From assembly GCA_025350465.1 (NCBI GenBank), contig JANXXU010000048.1:124001-188000 (forward strand): 64,000 nt of DNA, read 5' to 3'. The stretch is from Alphaproteobacteria bacterium. GTDB lineage: Bacteria; Pseudomonadota; Alphaproteobacteria; Micropepsales; Micropepsaceae. How positions within the stretch are numbered: position 1 is the first letter of the stretch; every line of letters starts with the position of its first letter. Shown here in pieces: positions 14,606 through 56,973 of this stretch. Position numbers and translations under genes: made by a program. Below the pieces are notes generated by a model. The model made no database searches. It saw only the letters and a program-made list of their open reading frames with translations, and had not been told where the DNA came from.

Positions 14606-15916
14606 ATGCCCATGAAATTCGGCATCTTCTACGAGCATCAATTGCCGCGGCCTTGGTCTGAAGGCCAAGAGCTCAAGCTATTCCAGGATGCTCTCGATCA
14701 GGTCGAGTTGGCCGACAAGATCGGCATCGATCATGCTTGGGAGGTCGAGCACCACTTCCTCGAAGAGTATTCGCACTCCTCGGCGCCGGAAGTTTTTCTC
14801 GCCGCATGCTCGCAACGCACCAAGCGCATCCGCCTCGGGCACGGCATCGTGCTGATGCCGCCGGGCTACAACCATCCGGCGCGAGTGGCCGAGCGCATCG
14901 CGACGCTCGACCTCGTTTCGAACGGGCGCGTCGAGTTCGGCACGGGCGAGTCCTCCGCCTTGCTCGAGCTTGGCGGCTATCGCGTGCCGCTCGAGAAGAA
15001 GCGCGACATGTGGCGCGAGACGCTTGAGCAGTGCCTCAACATGATGGTGATGAACCCTTATCCCGGGTTCAAAGGCCAATATTTTGAAATGCCCTGCCGC
15101 AACATCGTGCCCAAGCCGGTGCAAAAGCCGCATCCACCGGTGTGGGTCGCCTGCTCGAACCGCGAGACGATCAAGCTCGCGGCACGCCTCGGTATCGGCG
15201 CACTGACATTCGCCTTCGTCGATCCCAAAGAGGCCAAGCAATGGGTCGACGATTACTATCGCATCCTCAAAGAGGAGTGCGTGCCGATCGGCCACGCGGT
15301 CAATGCGAACATCTGCATGGTCACCGGCTTTTCCGTCCATCAAAACGCCGAGGAGGCGCGCAAGCGCGGACTCGACGGCTTCAAGTTCTTCGGCTACGCG
15401 CTCGGACACCATTACATCTTCGGCGAGCACAAGCCCGGCCGCACCGACATCTGGAAGGCGTTCGAGGCGGTCAAGGATGCAATGCCCGAGAACGCGGGCG
15501 CGGGCGGCATCGGCACGCCCGACACGATGCGCAAACATATGCGGGGCTTCGCCGAAGCCGGCGTCGACCAGGTTGCCTTCATCCAACAGGGCGGGCGTAA
15601 CAAGCACGAACACATTTGCGAAGCGCTCGAATTGTTCGCGCGCGACGTGATGCCTGAGTTCAAAGAACACGCCGACGCGCGCCAGAAGCGCAAGGCGGAA
15701 GAACTCGCGCCCTTCATCGAAAAGGCCTTCGCGCGAAAGCAGAAGATGCGCGAGTTGACTGACGACGAAATCCCTAACGTCGTGGCGCTGGGCCGCCAGA
15801 TCTCGCAGCAAACCCTGACACCGGCGGAACAAGAAGCCCGCAAGTCCTGGTCCGAACGCAGCCACGTGCCGCTCGAAGACCCCGCGAAGAAGCTCAAGAA
15901 GGGCGCTGCGGAATAA
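14606..15916 (+). CDS. Luciferase-like (LLM class) flavin-dependent oxidoreductase
   Basis: The 436-residue protein has an (alpha/beta)8 luciferase-like core: MKFGIFYEHQLPRPW at the start, DHAWEVEHHFLEEYSHSSAP (about 41-60), and TKRIRLGHGIVLMPPGYNHPARVAERIATLDLVSNGR (about 72-109), the typical flavin-binding part. Members use reduced FMN or F420 and usually oxygen to oxidise organic substrates. A charged C-terminal extension (ARQKRKAEELAPFIEKAFARKQKM) adds about 80 residues beyond the fold. It is the last gene of the TetR-linked run, 35 bases after the second SDR. A monooxygenase step is likely; the substrate is open. Confidence 0.88.
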   Translation: MPMKFGIFYEHQLPRPWSEGQELKLFQDALDQVELADKIGIDHAWEVEHHFLEEYSHSSAPEVFLAACSQRTKRIRLGHGIVLMPPGYNHPARVAERIATLDLVSNGRVEFGTGESSALLELGGYRVPLEKKRDMWRETLEQCLNMMVMNPYPGFKGQYFEMPCRNIVPKPVQKPHPPVWVACSNRETIKLAARLGIGALTFAFVDPKEAKQWVDDYYRILKEECVPIGHAVNANICMVTGFSVHQNAEEARKRGLDGFKFFGYALGHHYIFGEHKPGRTDIWKAFEAVKDAMPENAGAGGIGTPDTMRKHMRGFAEAGVDQVAFIQQGGRNKHEHICEALELFARDVMPEFKEHADARQKRKAEELAPFIEKAFARKQKMRELTDDEIPNVVALGRQISQQTLTPAEQEARKSWSERSHVPLEDPAKKLKKGAAE

Positions 15917-23516: not shown

Positions 23517-25733
23517 ATGGAAAACACGCCCGCCAAGCGCGAGTCTGCCCCGGCGCCTGCCCGCCGTGAGGTCCGCACGGCGCCAAAGGCGACCGATGCC
23601 GCGTCCACCGACCGTTTCGTCAATCGCGAACTCTCGTGGCTCGCTTTCAATACGCGCGTGCTGGATGAGTCCAAGAACGAGCGTCATCCGTTGCTCGAGC
23701 GGTTGCGCTTTCTATCCATCTCCGCGGCAAACCTCGACGAATTCTACACGGTCCGGGTCGCCGGCCTGAAGGGCATGGTCAACGCGGGCGTGGCTACGCT
23801 CAGCGACGACGGCCGCCGTCCGCAACAACAGCTCGACGAGCTTGACGCGATGGCGAGCGACCTCATGCGCGAACAGCAGCGCGTCTGGCTCGAACTCAAA
23901 AACCTGCTGCGCAAGTCAGGCATCGCGGTCGTCGAGCCGGTCGAACTCAGCGAGGCCGATCGCGACTGGCTGCGCGAGCGCTTCTTTGCAGATATCTATC
24001 CCGTGCTGACGCCGCTTGCCATCGATCCGGCGCACCCGTTTCCGTTCATTCCCAATTTCGGTTTTGCGCTGGGCTTGCAGCTCAAGCACAAGGCCGAGGG
24101 CCGCGCGATGAACGCGCTCATTCCAATTCCGCAGCAAGTCGCGCGGTTCTTCCGCTTACCTGCGGCAACCGGCGGCAACGGCGCGTCGCTCGTGCGCTTC
24201 ATAACGCTCGAGAATATCGTCGGCGAGTTTTTGGACCAGCTGTTTCACGGCTATGAAGTGCTCGGCCGCGGCGGCTTCCGGATTCTTCGCGACAGTGACG
24301 TTGAAATCGAAGAAGAAGCCGAAGATCTCGTGCGGGTGTTCGAGAGCGCGTTGAAGCGGCGGCGGCGCGGCAGCGTGATCAGGCTCAAGTGCGAAGCCTC
24401 GATGCCGGAGAGCCTGCGCCATTTTATTGCCGATCAACTCGGCCTCAAGCGCTCGGATCCCGTCAATGTCGAAGGCATTCTGGGTCTGGCCGACACCAAC
24501 AAACTGATCCTCGACGAGCGCCCCGATCTTACGTTCACGCCCTATAACGCGCGCTTCCCGGAGCGCATCCGCGATCACGGCGGCGATTGCTTTGCCGCGA
24601 TTCGCGCCAAGGACTTGATCGTCCATCATCCGTTTGAATCATTCGACGTCGTCGTCCAGTTCTTGCATCAGGCGGCGATGGACCCCGATGTCGTAGCGAT
24701 CAAGCAGACGCTCTATCGCACCGGCAACGACTCGCCGGTCGTCAAGGCGCTGATCGAGGCAGCCGAGGCGGGTAAATCCGTGACCGCGCTGGTCGAGCTC
24801 AAAGCCCGCTTCGACGAGGCCGCGAACATCCGCTGGGCGCGAGACCTCGAGCGCGCCGGCGTTCAAGTCGTCTTCGGTTTTATAGAGCTGAAGACTCACG
24901 CAAAGTTGTCGCTCGTGGTCCGCCGCGAGTCCGGCGTCTTGCGCACCTATACGCATTTCGGCACCGGCAATTATCACGCCGCGACCGCCAAGATTTACAC
25001 CGACCTCTCGTTGTTCACGGCCGATCCGGCGCTCGCCAAGGACGCGGCTCAGGTCTTCAACTTCGTCACCGGCTACGCCGAGCCCCAGCGCCTGGAGAAG
25101 CTTGCGGTCTCGCCGATCAACCTGCGCAGGCGCTTGCTCGATCATATCGATGCCGAAATTGCACACGCGAAGGCCGGCCGCCCGGGCCACATTTGGGCGA
25201 AGCTCAATGCGCTCGTCGATGCGGCAGTCATCGATGCGCTCTACCGCGCGAGCCAGGCCGGCGTGAAGATAGAACTCGTCGTGCGCGGGATTTGCTGCTT
25301 GCGTCCCGGGCTCCCGGGCTTGTCTGAAAACATCCGCGTGAAGAGCATCGTCGGCCGCTTCCTCGAGCATGCGCGCATCGTTTGCTTCGGCGACGGTCAC
25401 GGACTGCCGAGCCCCGACGCCAAGGTCTACATATCCTCGGCCGATTGGATGCCGCGCAATCTCGACCGCCGCGTCGAAGTCTTGGTGCCGATCGAAAACC
25501 CGACGGTCCACGAGCAGGTCATGGGCCAGATCATGAGCGCAAATTTGCGCGATGTTGCGCAAAGCTGGTATTTGCAATCGGACGGAACCTATCAGCGCGC
25601 TGTGGGTTTTGATGCCAAGGATGCGTTCAGCGCGCACGAGTATTTCATGACCAATCCCAGTCTATCCGGCCGCGGCCAAGGCGTGCCGCGCGACGCGCGC
25701 AAGGGCGGGCGCGGCCGCCTGAAGGGACAATAG
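23517..25733 (+). CDS. ppk: Polyphosphate kinase 1
   Basis: The 738-residue enzyme begins after a short disordered tail with [21 protein letters not shown] and [15 protein letters not shown], the PPK1 N-terminal domain. Catalytic segments are present: [31 protein letters not shown] with the autophosphorylated histidine, [20 protein letters not shown], and [22 protein letters not shown]1 reversibly polymerises ATP gamma-phosphate into polyphosphate. The ATG at 23517 is chosen over a TTG at 23493. It is followed by ppx after five bases, giving a synthesis/degradation pair. Confidence 0.95.
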
Positions 25734-25738
25734 TCGCG

Positions 25739-27268
25739 ATGCCCGCGGCAAGCCTCGAAACCGCGCGCCGATCCAGCGCGCCGCAAAGCGCGGCGGGGGC
25801 GGCGCCCGTCGGCGTCGTCGACATCGGATCGAACTCGGTTCGCCTCGTCATCTTCGATCGTTTGGCGCGCAGTCCCGTTGCTCTCTTCAACGAGAAGGCG
25901 CTGTGCGGCATCGGCCGCAATATGGTCTCGACCGGCCGCCTGGACGACAGCGGCGTCGCAGCCGCCTTGACCGCACTTGCGCGCTTTCGCGAAATCGCCG
26001 GGGCGCTCGGCGTCACGCGGATCGAAGCGGTCGCAACCGCCGCGGTGCGCGATGCGCGTAACGGTAACGAATTTGTCGCGCGCGCCCGCGACGCGCTGGG
26101 CAGCCAGGTGAGAGTCTTGTCCGGCGAGGACGAGGCCCGATTGTCGGCCGAGGGCGTGCTCGCCGCCATTCCCGATGCCGATGGCGTCGTCGGCGATCTC
26201 GGCGGCGGCAGTCTCGAGCTTTCGCCTGTTTCCAACGGCAAAGTCTCGTCCGGCCTCACGTTGCCCTTCGGTCCGTTGCGCCTGATGGATTTGTCGGACG
26301 GCAAGATCGAGCGCGCCCGCACCCTCGTCGATGCCGCCTTGGACGAAATGCAGGGGCGCGACAAATTCAAGGGCAAAACGCTTTACGCCGTCGGAGGCGT
26401 CTGGCGCAACATCGCGCGTATCCAAATGGAAGACGCAGAGCACCCGATCCGCATTCTCCATCACTACGAAATCTCGCGCGAAGAAGCGGCGGGCTTTGCC
26501 TCGTTCCTGGCCGGCCAATCACGTAAATCATTGGAGTCGATCACCTCCGTCACGCGCCGTCGCGCGGAGTCCATTCCATACGGCGCTTTGGTGATGGAGC
26601 GTCTCTTGAAGGCGCTGAAGCTCGATCGGGTCGTCATCTCAGCCTTCGGTGTGCGCGAGGGCGTGCTGTTCTCGAAACTCCCGGCTGAGGAGCGTGCGGA
26701 GGATCCGTTGCTTGCCGCCTGTCGCGATCTCGCGGTCAGGCTCGGCCGGGACGCGGACTTGGGCCCCGCCTTGGATCGCTGGATCGCGCCGATCTTCGCC
26801 GACGACGAGCCGCGCTTTAAACGGTTGCGCCGCGCCGCGAGCTGGTTGTCCGACGTCGGTTGGCGCGGCCACCCCGATCATCGCGCGGAGCAGGCGTTTC
26901 TCGACGCGCTGAATGCGCCGTTTATCGGCATCGACCACCCTGGCCGGGCGCAGCTCGCGCTTGCGCTCTACCACCGTTACGGCGGTGAGGCTGTCGATCA
27001 AATCAAGCGCGTCGAGCGGATCGAACGTTTCCTGAGCGGCGAGGCGCGCGAACAATCCGAGTTGCTTGGTGCCGCGTTGCGAGCCGGCCTCTCGATCGCC
27101 GGGCCGTCGGCGAGCTTGCTGAGCGAGACCTCGCTTCGCCTGACGAGCGCCAGCGTGATCCTGACCCTGCCGCGCAGCCGCCAGGCGCTGATCGCCGAAC
27201 CGGTGACGAAGCGCCTCGACGAGCTGGCGAAAATCCTCGACCGTCAATCACGCATCGAAACGCGCTGA
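25739..27268 (+). CDS. ppx: Exopolyphosphatase (Ppx/GppA family)
   Basis: The 509-residue protein has the actin-like ATPase motifs VVDIGSNSVRLVIFD (about 23-37) and VVGDLGGGSLELSPV (about 150-164), with AVATAAVRDARNG between them. These define the Ppx/GppA family, which removes terminal phosphates from polyphosphate or pppGpp. Later blocks RRRAESIPYGALVMERLL and SAFGVREGVLFSKL follow the family pattern. The C-terminal 200 residues are helical. Its position five bases behind ppk1 supports exopolyphosphatase over pppGpp phosphatase, though both activities can coexist. Confidence 0.92.
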   Translation: MPAASLETARRSSAPQSAAGAAPVGVVDIGSNSVRLVIFDRLARSPVALFNEKALCGIGRNMVSTGRLDDSGVAAALTALARFREIAGALGVTRIEAVATAAVRDARNGNEFVARARDALGSQVRVLSGEDEARLSAEGVLAAIPDADGVVGDLGGGSLELSPVSNGKVSSGLTLPFGPLRLMDLSDGKIERARTLVDAALDEMQGRDKFKGKTLYAVGGVWRNIARIQMEDAEHPIRILHHYEISREEAAGFASFLAGQSRKSLESITSVTRRRAESIPYGALVMERLLKALKLDRVVISAFGVREGVLFSKLPAEERAEDPLLAACRDLAVRLGRDADLGPALDRWIAPIFADDEPRFKRLRRAASWLSDVGWRGHPDHRAEQAFLDALNAPFIGIDHPGRAQLALALYHRYGGEAVDQIKRVERIERFLSGEAREQSELLGAALRAGLSIAGPSASLLSETSLRLTSASVILTLPRSRQALIAEPVTKRLDELAKILDRQSRIETR

Positions 27269-27296
27269 CCTTCAAGAGCGTTCGGCCAAAGCTATT

Positions 27297-28361
27297 TCAC
27301 AGAGCGAAGCGCGCCTTGAAATCGGCGAGCAATAGTTTCCACAGGCGCAGATAGGACTCGATCTGGGTGGTCGAATCTTCATGTTCGAGATCGAGATCCA
27401 TCTCGGCAAAGAGCCCGGCTCGGTCTTCGCTGGTGTAGGCGCGCACCAGGCGTTTGTCGCGATTCCACGCATTCAACGTATCGTCGGAAGGCGGATTGGT
27501 GACTTTCCAGCCGGCGGCGAACTGAATTGACGGGCAACGCTCACCGCTGCAGTCGAAGAAATAGACGTCGATACTCACGCCGTCGATCGCGGTCTTGATG
27601 ATCGAATTGCCAAGGCTGTCATTTGCAAACGCGGCGCTGTAGCCGCGAGAGGTCAGGAAATCGCTCATCTCCTTGCGCGTAATTCCACCAGCGACGGCGC
27701 TACTGCTCTCGGGCGTCGATGGTGGTGCGTGAGGTGTCACCTCGGGCGTTGCATCGACCTTTCCCACTGGCGCCGCCGGCGTTTCCGCGGTTACCACCGG
27801 CGCGGGGGCAGGCCTTGATTGCGCGAAATAGAGCGCGAGCGCCCCGACCAGCGCGAGGACGCCGATCGCCGCCAACACGAAACCGGCAGCATTCGACGAG
27901 AACGGCAGCTTCAGTGGTAGACGAGGGAGTGTCGGCAGCGGATGGGTCTTGAACGATTGTTCGGTGGGCGGTCTTTCGACCGCTGCCGCGACCGCCATCA
28001 GCAGGGATCGCCAATGCGGGTCGCCGACGTCGCCGTGCCAACGCTTCAGGTCTGCCGCTTGTATTTCACCAAAGCCAAATGGCGGCGCGGAATCGTCGAT
28101 CAAGACGGGGATGAGCTTGCCGCGATCATGCGCCAATCGCGCTTCTTCTCTGACCCATTTCGACGCTGTCGAGATTTGACTCCAGATCACGATCGCCGCT
28201 TTGCAGGCCGCCAACTTCTCCTCAAGGATATCGGCCCAGCTTTTTCCCGGCGGGATCTCAACGTCCCAAAATACCTCGTAGCCGGCGGCGGTGAGCGCGG
28301 CTGCGATCTCCGAGGCGCGCGCGTGGTCTTCGCGCGAATAGGAAAGGAAGATATCGGCCAC
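27297..28361 (-). CDS. TIR domain - transmembrane - YbjN-like fusion protein
   Basis: The 354-residue protein has three parts. Residues 1-125 are a TIR domain (FLSYSREDHARASEIA, EVFWDVEIPPGKSW, CKAAIVIWSQISTASKWVREEARLA), with Glu72/Glu73 in the place of the NADase glutamate. Residues 158-180 form one membrane helix, followed by a Pro/Ala/Thr-rich linker to about 225. Residues 228-350 resemble the YbjN sensory-regulator fold (RKEMSDFLTSRGYSAA, GVSIDVYFFDC, LRLWKLLLADF). The TIR part would face the cytoplasm and the YbjN part the periplasm. It lies 90 bases downstream of rnd and converges on ppx. Function is not known; see findings. Confidence 0.8.
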   Translation of the reverse strand: MADIFLSYSREDHARASEIAAALTAAGYEVFWDVEIPPGKSWADILEEKLAACKAAIVIWSQISTASKWVREEARLAHDRGKLIPVLIDDSAPPFGFGEIQAADLKRWHGDVGDPHWRSLLMAVAAAVERPPTEQSFKTHPLPTLPRLPLKLPFSSNAAGFVLAAIGVLALVGALALYFAQSRPAPAPVVTAETPAAPVGKVDATPEVTPHAPPSTPESSSAVAGGITRKEMSDFLTSRGYSAAFANDSLGNSIIKTAIDGVSIDVYFFDCSGERCPSIQFAAGWKVTNPPSDDTLNAWNRDKRLVRAYTSEDRAGLFAEMDLDLEHEDSTTQIESYLRLWKLLLADFKARFAL

Positions 28362-28451
28362 TCGCCGTCCTCAAATTGCTATGGCAGTATCTATCAATGA
28401 TTTTCGAGCGGCGCGAGAGGGGCTTGCGCCGCCGAGGATCTGGCCGCGCCG

Positions 28452-29624
28452 CTAGCCCTTGCCGCCGCTCAAGCTTTCCACCGCCACCACGACGGCGCGA
28501 CGGCCGCGCATGCCGAGCGCGATGCGGCCGCGCTTCAACTCCAGCGCGGCTTCGCCGAATATCTCGCGACGCCAGCCCGCCAACGCCGGCACGTCGGCGT
28601 TGTCATCAGCGGCGATTTGATCGAGATCGGCGGAGGAGGCGATCAGCTTTTGCGCGACACCATGCTCCTCACAGCGGATCTTGAGGAGCACGCGCAACAT
28701 GTCGGCGATGGCGCCCGAAACTTGCGGCGGCGGTCCGCGTTCGATGTCGGGGACGGCGGAGGCGGGCAAGCTCAGGCCGCCGCGCACCGCATCGACCAGC
28801 CCCTGCGCCGAGCGCGATCCGGCAAAGCCCTTCGGCACGCCGCGCAGCGCTTCCAGATCTTCCAACGATTGCGGCGCCTGGGCGGCGATCTCGAACAGCG
28901 CCTCGTCCTTCAGAACGCGCGAGCGCGGCACGTTGCGATCCTGTGCCACGCGCTCGCGCCAGGCGGCGACCTCCATCAACACAGCGGTGAAGCGCCGATT
29001 GCCGCCGCGCATCTTGAGCCGGCGCCAGGCATCCTCGGGCTTCAACTCATAGGTCTCCGGCGCTCGCAGGATGTCCATTTCCTCTTCAAGCCAATGCGAA
29101 CGCCCGCTCTTGGCCAATTGGCGCAGCAACGATTCGTAGACGCGACAGAGATGCGTCACGTCGGAAAGCGCGTAGGCGAGTTGCTTGTCGCTGAGCGGCC
29201 GGCGGCCCCAATCGGTGAAGCGCGAAGACTTGTCGATCTGGGCGTGCGCCAATTCACGCACCAATGTCTCGTAAGCCGCCGCATCGCCGAAGCCGCACAC
29301 CATCGCCGCCACTTGGGTGTCGAACAGCGGCGCTGGAATCGTGCTCGACTGATGAAAGAAGATCTCGATGTCTTGGCGCGACGCGTGAAATACCTTCATC
29401 ACGGCCGGGTTGCGCAAGAGCTCAATCAAGGGTGCGAGGTCGATGCCTTCGGCAAGCGGATCGATAACGACCGCAAAGCTCGGCATGGCCGCTTGGATCA
29501 GGCACAATTTCGGCCAATAGGTCGTGTCGCGCATGAACTCGGTGTCGAGCGCCACATAAGGACCCTCGGCCAGCCGTGTACATGCCGCGGCCAGTCCATC
29601 CGTCGTCGTTACCGGTTCGATCAT
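28452..29624 (-). CDS. rnd: Ribonuclease D
   Basis: The 390-residue enzyme starts at the ATG at 29624; codons further upstream show no conservation. It has the DEDD 3'-exonuclease domain: [20 protein letters not shown] (DE), [14 protein letters not shown] (D) and a later [18 protein letters not shown] with the final Asp and Tyr-like element. An HRDC domain follows (about 210-290; [21 protein letters not shown]). RNase D trims the 3' ends of tRNA precursors. It is divergent from aspS, with 106 bases between starts. Confidence 0.93.
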
Positions 29625-29730
29625 CGGCCGGTCGTATAGCGGAAGATTCGCACTCTTGACAGGTGGCGTAGCGCAACCCCACAAGGGCGCCTTTCCGCGC
29701 ACGAACGACGCTCGCCAAGGTCAGACGCAC

Positions 29731-31560
29731 ATGCATCGCTATCGCACGCATACTTGTGGCGCCCTGCGCCCGGCACATGAAGGCGCGACCGTGCGCGTTT
29801 CCGGCTGGGTGCATCGGCGGCGCGATCACGGCGGGCTCGTCTTCATCGATTTGCGCGACCACTACGGCATCACGCAGTGCGTGATCGAGCCCTCGAGCCC
29901 GGCGTTCAAGACGGTCGACAGTTTGCGCTCGGAGTGGGTGGCGGCCATCACGGGCCGTGTGACCTCGCGGCCCGGCGACACGGTTAATCCCGATCTGCCG
30001 ACCGGCGAAGTCGAAATCCGGATCGACAGCGTCGAGGTGTTGTCCGAAGCGTCCGACCTGCCGGTCCCTGTCTTCGGCGATCAAGAATATCCGGAGGAGA
30101 CGCGGCTCAAATACCGCTTTCTCGACTTGCGCCGCGACCGGTTGCACAAGAACGTCGTATTGCGCTCGAACGTGATTTCGAGTTTGCGCCGCCGGATGAT
30201 CGCCGAGGGCTTCACCGAATTCCAAACGCCGATCCTGACGGCGTCGAGCCCCGAGGGCGCGCGAGACTTTTTGGTGCCGTCGCGCCTTCACCCCGGCAAG
30301 TTCTACGCCCTGCCGCAAGCACCGCAGCAGTTCAAGCAGCTGATCATGGTTGCGGGCTTCGACCGCTATTTCCAAATCGCGCCCTGCTTTCGCGACGAGG
30401 ACGCCCGCGCCGACCGCTCGCCCGGCGAGTTCTATCAGCTCGACATCGAGATGAGCTTCGTCACGCAGGAGGATGTGTTCGCAGCGGTCGAACCGGTGCT
30501 GCACGGCGTCTTCGAGGAATTCGCCAACGGCCGCAGCGTCAGCCCGATGCCTTTTGCGCGCATCCCGTACGCGGAGTCGATGCTGAAATATGGGTCCGAC
30601 AAGCCAGACCTGCGCAACCCGATCGTCATCGCCGACGTCAGCGCCGAATTCAACGACCCGAGCGTCGAGTTCAAGGCGTTCAAGTCAGTGATAGCGCAGG
30701 GCGGTGTCGTGCGTGCTATTCCGGCGCCGGGCGCCGCAACGCAGCCGCGTTCGTTCTTCGACAAGCTGAACGAATGGGCGCGCGCGGAAATGAAAGCGCC
30801 CGGCCTTGGCTACATCGTCTTTGAAAACGAAGGCGGTAAGGTCGTCGGCAAAGGACCGATCGCTAAGTTCATTCCCGAGCCTATCCAGCAGCGCCTGGCC
30901 AAGGCGGCGGGCGTCAAGGGTGGCGACGCCCTGTTTTTCTCGGCGGGCAAGCCGGATGCGGCGGCAAAGCTAGCAGGCGCCGCACGCATCCGGATCGGCA
31001 ATGAACTCGGACTGAAGGCATCGCCCTATTTCGATTTTCACTTCTGCTGGGTCGTCGACTTCCCGATGTACGAAATGAACGAGGAGGAGAAGCGGATCGA
31101 CTTTTCGCACAACCCGTTCTCTATGCCGAATTTCGCGCATGACGCATTCTTGAAGCTCGAGGGCAAGGATGAAAAGACGGCCCTCGGCATCACGGCTTTC
31201 CAATACGACATCGTCTGCAACGGCATCGAGCTGTCGTCGGGCGCGATCCGCAATCATCGCCCGGACATCATGCTCAAGGCATTCGAGATCGCCGGCTATC
31301 CGGCCGATACGGTCGAGCAAAAATTCGGCGGCATGTTGAATGCGTTGCGCTACGGCGCGCCGCCGCATGGCGGCACTGCACCGGGCGTCGACCGCATCGT
31401 CATGCTGATCGCGGGCGAAGAGAATCTGCGCGAGGTCACCATGTTCCCGATGAATCAGAAGGCCGAGGACCTGATGATGGGCGCGCCATCGGAAGTGACG
31501 CCGAAGCAATTGCGGGAACTGCACATTCGCGTCGTGCTGCCTGAGGTTGGGAAGCCCTAG
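29731..31560 (+). CDS. aspS: Aspartyl-tRNA synthetase, non-discriminating type
   Basis: The 609-residue enzyme starts at ATG 29731 ([13 protein letters not shown]). It has the OB-fold anticodon domain ([21 protein letters not shown]), class II motifs including [24 protein letters not shown], a bacterial GAD insertion, and motif 3 in [13 protein letters not shown]. The histidine in RRRDHGG is the residue linked in Pseudomonas enzymes to non-discriminating charging of both tRNA-Asp and tRNA-Asn; discriminating enzymes have Leu there. Asp-tRNA-Asn would then be corrected by GatCAB. A TTGACA at 29656-29661 may belong to its promoter, with a poor -10. Confidence 0.94.
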
Positions 31561-33492: not shown

Positions 33493-33819
33493 ATGCGTTT
33501 GACGACGGCTCTGGGCGCGGCGGCGTTGGCTATTGCGCTTGTCACGACGCCGGCTGCGGCGGACGGCAAGGTTTCAAGCTGTTTGCTCAACGGCAAGGCG
33601 CTCATGGGCAAAGTCCAGATCGTCAACAGCTTCGCCGACTTCAAGGTGCAGGTGGTGTCGAGCTTTCCGGACCTGAAGGTGCAGAAGGTAAAGAGCTTTC
33701 CCGACGCCTGCGGCAAATGGGAATTCGTGAAGAGCTTTCCCGATTTCACCATTCAGATCGTGACGAGCTTCCCCGACTTCACGATCGAATATGTCGACAG
33801 CTTTCCCGGGCAGCCCTAG
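33493..33819 (+). CDS. Secreted SFPD-repeat protein (septoil-knot-like)
   Basis: The 108-residue protein has a signal peptide (about 1-23) and six short repeats with the core (V/K)xSF(P/A)D(F/L)(K/T)(V/I)Q. The SF pairs fall at residues 46, 57, 68, 81, 92 and 103, a period of 11 with one two-residue insertion. Two cysteines (30 and 73) may form a disulphide. Each repeat would give one strand, consistent with a small closed coil; a database family of similar sequences is called '7(1) septoil knot' as I recall. AGGAGG-like bases lie just before the ATG. Function is unknown. Confidence 0.75.
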   Translation: MRLTTALGAAALAIALVTTPAAADGKVSSCLLNGKALMGKVQIVNSFADFKVQVVSSFPDLKVQKVKSFPDACGKWEFVKSFPDFTIQIVTSFPDFTIEYVDSFPGQP

Positions 33820-40126: not shown

Positions 40127-43030
<2,904 letters not shown>

Positions 43031-43107
43031 GAGCCCCTTATTAGTACCCGATCGCGCCACGACTCAGCCCCGCTCCACAGATTTCGAGGCTCATACCTTG
43101 ACTTTGA

Positions 43108-52045: not shown

Positions 52046-52909
52046 TCAACCGTTCGCCAACCGCTCGATCCACTTCGGTAGCGCGAATGCCGCGCGATGG
52101 ACTGCGGGCGTGTAGTAGTCTGTGCGCAGTCGCGCCGCGGCAAATGCCGATTCCAATCCGCCCCACCGCTTCGGATCACCGAGCACGGCGTCGTTCGAGG
52201 CCCAGGTCAGTGCCATATAGCCGCCGATGTACGTTGTGACGACCGAGAGATAGACGCCGCAATAGCGGAACGTGCGCTGCATCTGTTTCAGCGTGTCGGT
52301 CAGTTCCTCCGGCTGAAAGAAAGGCACGCCATTTTGGAACACGGCGAAGGCGCCAGGTGCCATTGCTTCCGAGACGCGCTCGTAGAATGTGTCGCCGAAC
52401 AGAACTTCCGCCGGCCCGACCGGATCAGGACGGTCGGCGATGATGAGATCGAAGCGCCTCTTGTTGGCCTTGTCGGCGAGGAACACGAAGGCGTCCTGGA
52501 TTTGGACTTTGAGGCGCGGATCGGCGAAGGCGGCGGCATTAACCTCGCTCAGGTGGCGCCGCGACAATTCGACCACCATCGGGTCGATCTCGACGTTGAA
52601 GCACTCTTGGACGCCGCGGTGTTTGAGCGCTTCTTCGGCGATCGCCATGTCGCCGCCGCCGGCGATCATGATCTGCTTGACGTCGCCGTGCTCCAGCATC
52701 GGCAAATGGGTCAGCATCTCGGAATAGGCGCACTCGTCTTTGGTCGTCAGTTGGACGATGTCGTCGAGAACCAAAACGCGCCCATTGCGTTGTGAATCAA
52801 AGATTTTTATGTCCTGAAACTGACTCTTCTCATGCACGATCGGTTTGCCGTCGAGCGTGATCGCCTGGGCGAATCCGGGATGGAGTTTTTCGAGAAAAAC
52901 GTCCGCCAT
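52046..52909 (-). CDS. speE: Spermidine synthase
   Basis: The 287-residue aminopropyltransferase has TKDECAYSEMLTHLPML (active-site Asp/Glu block), the SAM-fold strand IMIAGGGDMAIAEEALKH and DRPDPVGPAEVLF with the catalytic aspartate. In most relatives the glycine loop reads GGGDGG; here Met-Ala replaces Gly-Gly. It transfers aminopropyl from decarboxylated SAM to putrescine, releasing methylthioadenosine. It is divergent from speD, which supplies that donor, across 301 bases. It converges on the coiled-coil gene. Confidence 0.9.
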   Translation of the reverse strand: MADVFLEKLHPGFAQAITLDGKPIVHEKSQFQDIKIFDSQRNGRVLVLDDIVQLTTKDECAYSEMLTHLPMLEHGDVKQIMIAGGGDMAIAEEALKHRGVQECFNVEIDPMVVELSRRHLSEVNAAAFADPRLKVQIQDAFVFLADKANKRRFDLIIADRPDPVGPAEVLFGDTFYERVSEAMAPGAFAVFQNGVPFFQPEELTDTLKQMQRTFRYCGVYLSVVTTYIGGYMALTWASNDAVLGDPKRWGGLESAFAAARLRTDYYTPAVHRAAFALPKWIERLANG

Positions 52910-53888: not shown

Positions 53889-55376
53889 ATGGCCGTGGAT
53901 CGGCTTGACGCCATCGTCATCGGTGCGGGCGTGGAAGGTTTGACGGCGGCCATCGCGCTCGCGCGCGCCGGCCTTGGCGTCATCGTCGTGGAAAAAAAAT
54001 TGTCGCCGGGCCTCCTCGGCCTCGGCCGAGGGGCGGTCGTATCGGCCGAGACGGCACGCGCCCTCGATCTAACCGCGCATGGTGTTCGCTTCGCGCCACC
54101 ACCTCCGATCGTGGGGATCGCCGCCGACGCGAGCGTTGTCCTCTGGCCGGAAGAACACGCCGCGCGCGCAGGCATCGCCGGCCTCTCTAAGCGCGATGCC
54201 GAAGCCTATGGCGAGTTTCGCAACCGGATCGCGCGCGCCGCTCGATCACCCGACCGCATGAGTTCTCCGGTGGCTTGGCTGACCAGCACAGCGCCAGCCG
54301 ACGAGAACGAGGCGTCGCCGTTCTGGCTCTCCTCGATCGCACACGTGTTGGACGAAGCCTTTGACACCGATCTCCTGAAGGGTATCTGGGCGCAAGGCGC
54401 GGTAATCGGCGCCGGTGTCTCGCCGGCCGCTCCCATGTCTGCCTCGCTCTTCACGCGCGCTTCGTTGCTCAGTGACATCGCACCGGAGCTATCGGGGCGG
54501 GCAGTGACTGGCGGGCGTTCACGGCTGATTGCCGCGCTGATCAGCCAGTTTCTGGCGCTCGGAGGCGAACTGCGTGTCGGCGCGGAGGCCCAAGAAGTCA
54601 TCGTCGATCGAGACGCCGCCCAAGGCGTCCAGCTTGTCGGCGGCGTCATGTTGCGGGCGCCTCTCGTGATCTCGTCCCTCGATCCGCGTCGCAGCTATTT
54701 GATGCTCGTCGGCCTGCGTCGGTTGCCTCAGGCCGTTGTCCGCCAAATGACGGGGGCGCGGTCCGAGGCAAAGCCAGGCTTGGTGCGTCTAACCCTTGGC
54801 GCCGCGCCGCCCTTCACCCGGTTGGCGCCGGATGTGCTGGCCGCCAGCCCGCTCATACGAATTAATCCAAGGCTCGACCGGTTGGCGCACGCTCATGGCG
54901 CGTTCCGCCGCCGCCTGCTGAGCGACGAGATATCGCTGGACGTCACCCCGCGCCCGCTTGCGGCCCCGTCGTCGGCCGGCGGCGTCCGTTGGGAGTTGGC
55001 GGCCAGCGCGCCTTATCTTCCCGCCGAGACGACGGAAGGCCCATGGTCGGCCGGCAGGCGCGACCGACTGCGCGAACTGACGCTGGCGGCTCTGGAGGCC
55101 GTAGCGCCGGGCCTGACCGCGATGGTGGAGAAAATCGACGTTCTCAACCCGCCCGAGCCACAGACGAATATGGGGCCGAACGGAGCCGCGTTCCTCCAGG
55201 CAAACGCCTCAAGCGATCCAACGGTGTTGCCGCGACCGCCGGGTGCTCTCGTGCCGCAGGTATTGAAGAATCTAATTGTCCTGGAGCGCAACGTCTTTGC
55301 GACCGACGGTGCCGTCGGGCTGACGGCGGCGCGGGCCGTGACGGGCGCCAGGTCGAAGGGACGTTTGCGTGCGTAG
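53889..55376 (+). CDS. Phytoene-dehydrogenase/PYROXD2-like FAD oxidoreductase, degenerate member of a pair
   Basis: The 495-residue protein keeps the N-terminal dinucleotide loop IVIGAGVEGLTAAIALARAG but lacks the RxGG block that normally follows the second strand (here EKKLSPGLLGLGRGA). Its C-terminus lacks the GxxxxPGGG(V)xGxxG FAD-closing motif and reads FATDGAVGLTAARAV. The next gene keeps both. The fold and size match, so this is a paralogue that may have lost tight FAD binding or catalysis and could serve as a partner subunit. It overlaps the next gene by eight bases. Confidence 0.75.
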   Translation: MAVDRLDAIVIGAGVEGLTAAIALARAGLGVIVVEKKLSPGLLGLGRGAVVSAETARALDLTAHGVRFAPPPPIVGIAADASVVLWPEEHAARAGIAGLSKRDAEAYGEFRNRIARAARSPDRMSSPVAWLTSTAPADENEASPFWLSSIAHVLDEAFDTDLLKGIWAQGAVIGAGVSPAAPMSASLFTRASLLSDIAPELSGRAVTGGRSRLIAALISQFLALGGELRVGAEAQEVIVDRDAAQGVQLVGGVMLRAPLVISSLDPRRSYLMLVGLRRLPQAVVRQMTGARSEAKPGLVRLTLGAAPPFTRLAPDVLAASPLIRINPRLDRLAHAHGAFRRRLLSDEISLDVTPRPLAAPSSAGGVRWELAASAPYLPAETTEGPWSAGRRDRLRELTLAALEAVAPGLTAMVEKIDVLNPPEPQTNMGPNGAAFLQANASSDPTVLPRPPGALVPQVLKNLIVLERNVFATDGAVGLTAARAVTGARSKGRLRA

Positions 55377-56973
55377 TGTCGCCAATGCAGGTCCGGCCGA
55401 CTTCGACGCCATCGTGATCGGCGCGGGCATCAATGGCTTGGTTTGCGCGACCTTGCTCGCGCAGGCAAAACGCCGTGTCGTGATCATCGAAGCGCGCGAC
55501 CGGCCCGGCGGCGTGTGTATGACAGCTGAAGTGATCGACGGCTTTCGCGCCTCGAGCTTCGCCCATTTGACAGGCCCGTTCGACGCGGGCATCGCCAAGG
55601 CGCTGAAGTTGCAAAAATTTGGCCTGACTTGGAGCGAGACGGCGATGCCGACGATCGCCCTATCGCCGGATGCGCGCCACCTGATGCTTGGGCGCGATGT
55701 GCGCACGACGTCGCAGACGATCGGCTTGCATTCGCCGGCGGATGCGCAAGCCTGGTCGAATTTTGACCAGCGCATGGCGAAAACCACGAAGGTGCTGGCG
55801 CGTTGGATGCGCATGCCGCCGGGCGCCGCCCGTCCGCAAGCCAAGGGGCGTCGCGGGTTTTTTGCCGGTGCGCCGAGCGCGAACGGCGAGGGGCTCGACC
55901 GCGCGACCGCAATGCTGCTCGATCTCTCGATCGCTGATTTCCTCGATCAATATTTCGAATCGCCTGCGCTCAAAGGTGCACTGGCCTTGGATGCCGTTCT
56001 CGGCAGCGGTTTGGGACCGCGCTCGCCGGGAACAGCGTTCACATACGCAATGCGCCGTGCGTTGGACGACGGCACCGGCGACGGCTTTGCGCATCCGCAA
56101 GGTGGTTTGGGCGCATTCGCGGTCGCGTTGATGAAAGGGGCTGAGGCCGCCGGCGTGCGCACGCGTATGAAGGCGCGCGTCAAGCGCATTCTCTTCGAGA
56201 ACAGCCGCGCGATCGGGGTCGAGCTCGAAGGCGGCGAGATCGTTTACGCGCCGGCCGTTGTGTCGAGCCTCGATCCAAAGATGACGCTGTTGTCGCTCGG
56301 CGGGCCTCGCCATTTGCCGTTCGGGCTCAAACGGCGGCTGAAAGGCCTGCATGTCGAAGGCGTCACAGCGAAGGTCAATCTGGCGCTGAAGGGGCTGCCG
56401 GCGTTCAAGGGTCTTCAGCGCGAGGACCTGCGGGGACGGATCATCGTCTGCCCGTCTGTCGACTATCTCGATCGCGCCTTCGCGGCGGCGGGGCAGGGGA
56501 CGTTCTCGCCCGAGCCGGCGATGGAAATCACCATTCCGACGCTCCACGACTCGCTGCTCGCGCCGATCAACGAGCACGTCCTTTCGGCACACGTGCTTTA
56601 TGCACCTTACAAGCTCGCGGCGGCGTCGTGGGATCAGGCCAAGAACGATCTCGTGCAGCGCGTGATCGCCGTTCTGCAAAATTACGCGCCCGATCTCTCG
56701 AGCCGAATCTTGGCTGGCGATGTCTTCTCGCCGCCGGACATCGAGAAGATTTCCGGCGCGACTGGCGGCCATTGGCACGGCGGCGATTTGACGCTCGACC
56801 GCTTGGGGCCGCTGCGCCCCGCTGCCGGCGTCGCACGCTACGAGACGCCTGTGCCTGGCCTTTATCTTTGCGGCTCGGGAACGCATCCGTGCGGCGGCGT
56901 GACGGGGATCAATGGGCGCAACGCGGCCGAAGCGGTACTTGCCAATATATCTTCCACGGTCCACGCGCCATGA
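55369..56973 (+). CDS. Phytoene-dehydrogenase/PYROXD2-like FAD oxidoreductase
   Basis: The 534-residue protein starts at a GTG (55369). It has the intact FAD motifs IVIGAGINGLVCATLLAQ and EARDRPGGVCMTAE near the N-terminus, and LYLCGSGTHPCGGVTGINGRNAAEAVL near the C-terminus. Relatives oxidise or isomerise hydrophobic or unknown substrates. It lies between its degenerate paralogue (eight-base overlap) and the GcvT-like gene (ATGA overlap), so the three products are probably made together. No carotenoid genes are near. Confidence 0.85.
   Translation: MRSVANAGPADFDAIVIGAGINGLVCATLLAQAKRRVVIIEARDRPGGVCMTAEVIDGFRASSFAHLTGPFDAGIAKALKLQKFGLTWSETAMPTIALSPDARHLMLGRDVRTTSQTIGLHSPADAQAWSNFDQRMAKTTKVLARWMRMPPGAARPQAKGRRGFFAGAPSANGEGLDRATAMLLDLSIADFLDQYFESPALKGALALDAVLGSGLGPRSPGTAFTYAMRRALDDGTGDGFAHPQGGLGAFAVALMKGAEAAGVRTRMKARVKRILFENSRAIGVELEGGEIVYAPAVVSSLDPKMTLLSLGGPRHLPFGLKRRLKGLHVEGVTAKVNLALKGLPAFKGLQREDLRGRIIVCPSVDYLDRAFAAAGQGTFSPEPAMEITIPTLHDSLLAPINEHVLSAHVLYAPYKLAAASWDQAKNDLVQRVIAVLQNYAPDLSSRILAGDVFSPPDIEKISGATGGHWHGGDLTLDRLGPLRPAAGVARYETPVPGLYLCGSGTHPCGGVTGINGRNAAEAVLANISSTVHAP

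Follow-up and report, generated by a model that had tools for sequence, protein, structure and literature searches.

A predicted membrane-anchored fusion of a TIR domain and a YbjN domain at the ppx-rnd junction of a Micropepsaceae bacterium

Introduction

Bacterial TIR proteins fall into groups with diverse architectures (PMC7075850). TIR enzymes that cleave NAD are known in anti-phage defence, and for several of them clustering through an additional domain is the trigger (PMC12847820), while the TIR proteins of Thoeris systems sense capsids (PMC11312562). The protein described here has the same TIR fold as AbTir, ThsB and the SPARTA TIR protein, and its catalytic-type glutamate aligns with that of AbTir. 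The AbTir, Thoeris ThsB and SPARTA proteins presumably rely on other sensor domains or partners and lack a YbjN domain. The same is described for SpbK (PMC12847820). In overall architecture the protein belongs with the modular TIR-TM-X proteins, with which it has in common an N-terminal TIR_2 domain, a hydrophobic helix and a variable C-terminal domain; this kind of protein is already known, and what is new is the YbjN partner. Animal Toll-like receptors also place a sensor outside, one helix in the membrane and a TIR domain inside, as is predicted here, but they are built in the reverse order, with an LRR ectodomain, TM helix and C-terminal TIR domain instead of an N-terminal TIR domain followed by YbjN, and the likeness would be convergent. 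As to the YbjN family, its member AmyR forms dimers with peptide-sized grooves, oriented like those with which type III secretion chaperones hold unfolded chains (PMC5398634), and a unification of the TY-chaperones covers YbjN (PMC9503650).

Here, we analyse a TIR-TM-YbjN protein encoded in a 64,000-nucleotide stretch of alphaproteobacterial DNA (the window). We propose that this modular TIR-TM-X protein crosses the inner membrane once and acts as a receptor, with a periplasmic YbjN sensor and an NAD-cleaving TIR domain, a reading to which we give just short of an even chance.

Results

The gene is located at 27297..28361 on the (-) strand and codes for a protein of 354 amino acids with a GTG start, which is well set because GAGGA precedes the GTG by 6 nt and an in-frame TGA lies four codons upstream. 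The GAGGA is part of the 90 bp gap (28362..28451, (-)) that separates the GTG from the stop codon of rnd, and no sigma-70-like site was found in 27200-28600. The gene is oriented head to tail behind rnd, coding for ribonuclease D (28452..29702, (-); TIGR01388, E 2.2e-125), and convergent with ppx, coding for an exopolyphosphatase (25739..27268, (+); Ppx-GppA, E 1e-50). A preliminary description, made from the sequence, had placed a protein with a TIR domain, a helix and a YbjN domain between ppx and rnd, and Pfam and hydropathy analyses agree with it. The adjacent genes give no hint of an effector, partner or ligand for the protein, and nothing points to a functional link with polyphosphate or RNase D.

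One full-length relative, with identities of 59%, 57% and, by tblastn, 53% in different comparisons, is present in another genome of the genus (G004). In this single comparison the synonymous distance is near saturation (dS 1.6-2.0, about 1.7), so that the following ratios are rough: the TIR domain is the most constrained part (80% identity, dN/dS about 0.07), followed by the YbjN domain (55%, 0.20), residues 131-185 (38%, 0.34) and the linker of residues 186-225 (15%, about 0.72), and it is the contrast between domains and linker that stands. Since a full-length relative exists, with strong constraint on TIR and moderate constraint on YbjN, the fusion is not a product of chance.

The TIR domain spans residues 4-108 (28038..28352, (-)) and matches Pfam TIR_2 (PF13676) at E 3.5e-25, with 89.3 bits against a curated cut-off of 28 bits. 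It contains both the SYSRED and the WVREEARLA blocks that had been pointed out beforehand, and WVREE corresponds to the WxxxE motif of NAD-cleaving TIR enzymes, with W69 and E73 as its outer residues; Glu73, the catalytic-type glutamate of helix C, is encoded at 28143-28145 (-). As a full-length model based on a two-sequence alignment gave a poor TIR domain, with nearly all of residues 1-154 at pLDDT <50, the TIR domain was modelled separately from an alignment of four sequences (pLDDT 89.1, pTM 0.83). This model falls among solved TIR structures, as had been anticipated, with matches to Hydra TRR-2 (Z 16.9, 2.2 A, 120 residues), a SPARTA TIR domain (Z 15.8), SARM1 (Z 14-15) and ThsB (Z 13.3). 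When solved chains were searched with a profile of 13 TIR homologues, the best were all bacterial, namely 7uxr (4.7e-12) and PdTIR (3h16, 3.1e-11), and AbTir, labelled as an NAD+ hydrolase, followed at 1.8e-10 (7uwg) and 4.1e-10. We take 7uxr and PdTIR to be NADases as well. For AbTir, mutation of S140, R151, D167, V193, W204, E208, R215 or Y238 inhibits the NADase, and the equivalent of W204 is dispensable in TcpC, another bacterial TIR protein (PMC11374754). Numbered by counting along the aligned chain, AbTir residues S140, D167, V193, W204 and E208 align with S7, D33, V58, W69 and E73 and are kept; the counterpart of R151 is S17, so that this residue is not conserved, and the printed alignment does not include R215 and Y238. 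NAD cleavage by this TIR domain is plausible.

Of 50 TIR homologues, 45 have Glu and five have Val in the glutamate column, and catalysis therefore seems dispensable in some relatives. The five Val-bearing homologues (L089-L093) come from genus g281 of the same family, and L089, the one among them checked for a kinase fusion, carries a protein kinase domain, which suggests that these TIR domains have turned into kinase scaffolds. The same receptor could thus be imagined with a TIR domain that serves as a scaffold for recruiting partners and does not cleave NAD in the cell. The loss of the R151 equivalent and the Val-bearing homologues, at least one of them kinase-fused, would fit such a scaffold, and TIR domains are often assembly platforms (PMC7075850); however, the conservation of E73 together with four more AbTir positions, the strong constraint on the TIR domain and the lack of an evident partner gene alongside speak against it, and we consider it unlikely.

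Among the same homologues, TIR_2 was matched by all 50 (both fusions included) and 25 have a hydrophobic peak that starts at residues 120-260. Their partner domains include FGE-sulfatase, protein kinase and TPR_2 (at least five each) and WD40 (at least two), counts that are lower bounds because 16 of the 50 are incomplete at the edge of the stretch. The YbjN profile, by contrast, matched only the two fusions, and the remaining 48 homologues gave no hit at E <0.5 (the same 16 of 50 being incomplete). The best TIR match within the own genome is a TIR-TM-FGE-sulfatase protein (L002:1498-2859, contig C43), and other helix-bearing fusions combine TIR with FGE-sulfatase (L123), TPR (L028, L107) or MORN (L030). 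In a genome from another class of the same phylum (G490), which also has a second TIR frame of 318 aa, we observed a TIR-TM-SPOR protein of 293 aa (L108:1501-2379), a possible peptidoglycan-reading counterpart. Since SPOR domains bind peptidoglycan, such an arrangement would suit an outward-facing sensor. A search of open-access PMC text gave no matches for a SPOR domain with a TIR domain or for PF10722.

Full-length relatives are rare. Counting the own genome, 2 of 11 genomes of the genus and 2 of 96 genomes of the family carry the fusion, both in one genus, and the order comprises the same set. Apart from the own genome, none was found among the 385 class genomes and 398 phylum genomes sampled, in which at most five first-look candidates were scored per genome. 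Six exact peptide patterns, which reach close relatives only, were run against 84,980 species genomes and returned one relative, in WGNJ01000001.1, an alphaproteobacterial MAG that we take to be the G004 record. Because of the exact patterns and the candidate limit, the rarity holds for the genomes searched and not for all bacteria. In 142 class genomes there were 124 YbjN matches (E up to 1e-8), three of them in open frames of >=300 aa, one of which is the window protein. Two candidates for further YbjN fusions were rejected, neither with a second Pfam domain at 0.001: the one in G149 reads as an exported YbjN protein in an overlong frame, and that in G147 has a Met start inside an overlong frame. 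No published account of a TIR-YbjN fusion was found in open-access PMC text, and the YbjN literature there does not name the fusion in titles or the starts of abstracts among the matches listed.

The site of the gene was compared within genus g1 (loci L073, L074 and L076-L079), where ppx and rnd are convergent and lie together on the stretch in seven genomes. In G007, G003 and G009 the junction is empty, the gap between the two genes being -4, 2 and 2 bp, respectively. A CBS-pair gene occupies the gap in G005 (449 bp) and in G006 (455 bp), a Crp-like gene plus a YgaP-like-TM gene occupy the 896 bp of G010, and in the window the fusion gene lies in a gap of 1183 bp. This spacing bears out the statement in the preliminary description that relatives have ppx and rnd without the fusion. 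As three genomes have an empty junction and three carry other genes there, it can be regarded as a variable junction or small insertion spot. In G004 the fusion gene again follows rnd on the same strand, and no ppx gene was detected in the 11.2 kb examined; by eye, G002 and G008 have other genes after rnd on the stretch examined, and the contig of G001 ends within rnd. The window genome and G004 are probably sisters, because their rnd genes are 90% identical as compared with 75-78% between the window and the other nine genomes of the genus. A single insertion next to rnd, at a junction open to added genes, probably explains the fusion gene in both.

The genes around the fusion were also inspected for defence functions. 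Eleven PADLOC families match the fusion protein, all in the TIR part, and 13 families match the 50 other window genes at 1e-5, with 30 of the 50 scanned singly for gene-by-gene tracing. Six of the 13 (mad3, mad8, NsnB, ATPase-Toprim, PDC-M01A and AriA) were dismissed, all falling on 40127-43060 (-), which is UvrA according to Pfam; its mad3 match (E 1.1e-102) is a false lead for MADS annotation. Of the others, C3a186 falls on 53889-55376 and 55369-56973, mad2 matches 52046-52909 in part (49 bits), and the oxidoreductase model C3a156 falls on 14606-15916; the matches to three Csa3 models (best 4.2e-15) and to CARF3 (2.3e-6) are not assigned to individual genes. A defence island around the fusion was therefore rejected, with no convincing defence system among the traced PADLOC matches and no Thoeris ThsA-type effector among the 13 families. 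A separate observation in the window is a 108-aa ORF at 33493-33819 (+) with a signal-like start and an 11-residue, SFPD-type repeat (33-bp unit, 2.4 copies by TRF and more by eye), without a Pfam match at 1e-5.

A mobile origin was likewise rejected: tblastn against 50,697 phage records returned no relatives, the matches in 13 plasmid records are limited to one half of the fusion, none covering 80%, and the DNA of 25700-29750 had a plasmid match of 1% only. One viral-contig scan returned two distant TIR domains, and three further ones returned no relatives. These results bear on the possibility that the protein is a dedicated anti-phage abortive infection system, in which the periplasmic domain would sense adsorption or DNA injection and the TIR domain would kill through NAD loss. 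TIR NADases do act in defence (PMC12847820), and the patchy presence of the gene (2/96 genomes) at a variable junction would suit such a system. Nevertheless, the traced PADLOC matches and the phage and plasmid searches, the housekeeping neighbours and the same rnd-linked place in both fusion genomes make this role rather improbable, and phage injection, named as a trigger in the preliminary description, receives no direct support.

Returning to the proposed envelope receptor, hydropathy shows a sole peak at residues 161-179 (27825..27881, (-)) and the full-length model has a helix at residues 159-179, as expected for the one membrane helix initially described. It is followed by the fast-evolving linker, which is rich in Pro, Ala and Thr (27687..27806, (-)), and by the YbjN domain at residues 229-352 (27306..27677, (-); PF10722, E 5.5e-14, 52.9 bits against a curated cut-off of 22 bits). 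In the model this part has the YbjN/TY-chaperone fold (pLDDT 68-92 in blocks of ten) and falls among solved YbjN structures, again as anticipated, with E. coli YbjN (6vu7; Z 13.6, 2.9 A, 124 residues), AmyR (Z 13.5, 4.9 A, 128 residues) and DR1245 (Z 13.0, 3.0 A, 125 residues) as matches. The fold is the same, but identity to these proteins, whose solved chains have no TIR domain, is 10-15%, and no sequence-level PDB relative was found at E <0.1. Several type III secretion chaperones also match the model (Z 8-12); no type III effector gene lies beside the fusion, which is flanked by ppx and rnd.

Stand-alone relatives of the YbjN half show signs of export. A crude test (a hydrophobic stretch followed by a small-x-small motif) gave a signal-peptide-like start in 20 of 21 such relatives, a set from which L036 was left out as a near copy of L035 and in which L010 has no usable N-terminal region. 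A cysteine pair with 4 to 9 residues in between is present in all 21 and in both fusions (23/23 aligned rows). In the window protein the pair is Cys271 and Cys276, and C53 in the TIR domain is a further cysteine; the G004 fusion has the pair only. We infer a disulphide between Cys271 and Cys276, which the pair need not form. The stand-alone proteins L015 (48% identical) and L003 thus have the same domain, cysteine pair and predicted export side, and differ in having a signal peptide where the window protein has its TIR domain and helix. Above cut-off, TIR_2 is matched three times and YbjN four times in the own genome. One of these matches is a canonical YbjN protein on contig C48 that, by eye and unaligned, has no signal-like start and no like-placed cysteine pair. 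A tree that used this protein as a cytosolic outgroup collapsed owing to its very long branch and was discarded; the final tree of 23 rows was built without it and without L036. In this tree both fusions and L015, which is encoded in G004, form a 99/95 clade, within which the window fusion pairs with L015 (92/88) in the best tree, and the alternative of uniting the two fusions in a clade of their own was not rejected (p-AU 0.44). One fusion event, two fusion events or the release of L015 from a fusion are all possible. We conclude that the fusion captured a secreted YbjN protein, with the TIR domain and helix taking the place of the signal peptide.

Because the YbjN half groups with exported relatives that carry the cysteine pair, a topology with TIR in the cytosol and YbjN in the periplasm is favoured. 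The periplasmic YbjN domain of the preliminary description gains from this kinship and stays a sequence-based prediction; the positive-inside charge is weak in the G004 fusion by eye. With an inverted or fully cytosolic topology, YbjN would sit inside the cell and either assist the TIR domain as a chaperone or restrain it, in the manner of cytosolic YbjN proteins and type III secretion chaperones. This view draws on E. coli YbjN, AmyR and DR1245, solved relatives that we take to be cytosolic, and on the fold in common with type III secretion chaperones; the clade with an exported protein and the retained cysteine pair of exported relatives speak against it, and we find this topology quite improbable. 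Least probable of all, and hardly to be expected, is a near-neutral fusion of little consequence that is being lost, for which its occurrence in two genomes only and the freely evolving linker could be cited, and against which stands the purifying selection on both domains over a nearly saturated synonymous distance.

Discussion

We propose the following mechanism for the TIR-TM-YbjN receptor. The N-terminal TIR domain would lie in the cytosol, and the helix and loose linker would hold the YbjN fold in the periplasm, where it may form dimers, bind peptides and be held by the cysteine pair. The most likely ligand would be an exposed stretch of a misfolded or mislocalised envelope protein, bound by YbjN. 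Binding would lead to pairing or clustering of the protein and bring the TIR domains together, and their assembly could create a composite active site around Glu73. The assembled TIR domains might then cleave NAD+ to signal, or deplete it. Topology in the cell, ligand, clustering, NAD cleavage and outcome are in this scheme what we infer from the domains and their relatives.

One might go further and see in this protein a Toll-like logic in which a chaperone does the sensing and a captured secreted YbjN domain reads unfolded periplasmic protein directly into NAD signalling or loss, a tentative and somewhat doubtful idea. If true, no two-component or protease relay would be needed to link the quality of envelope proteins to dormancy or death. 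To our knowledge, little work has addressed how bacterial cytosolic TIR enzymes could sense what happens beyond the inner membrane, and we know of no function for exported YbjN proteins. The TIR-TM-YbjN protein offers a compact test of ligand, topology and NAD fall in one protein, and exported YbjN proteins would gain a first testable role as peptide sensors.
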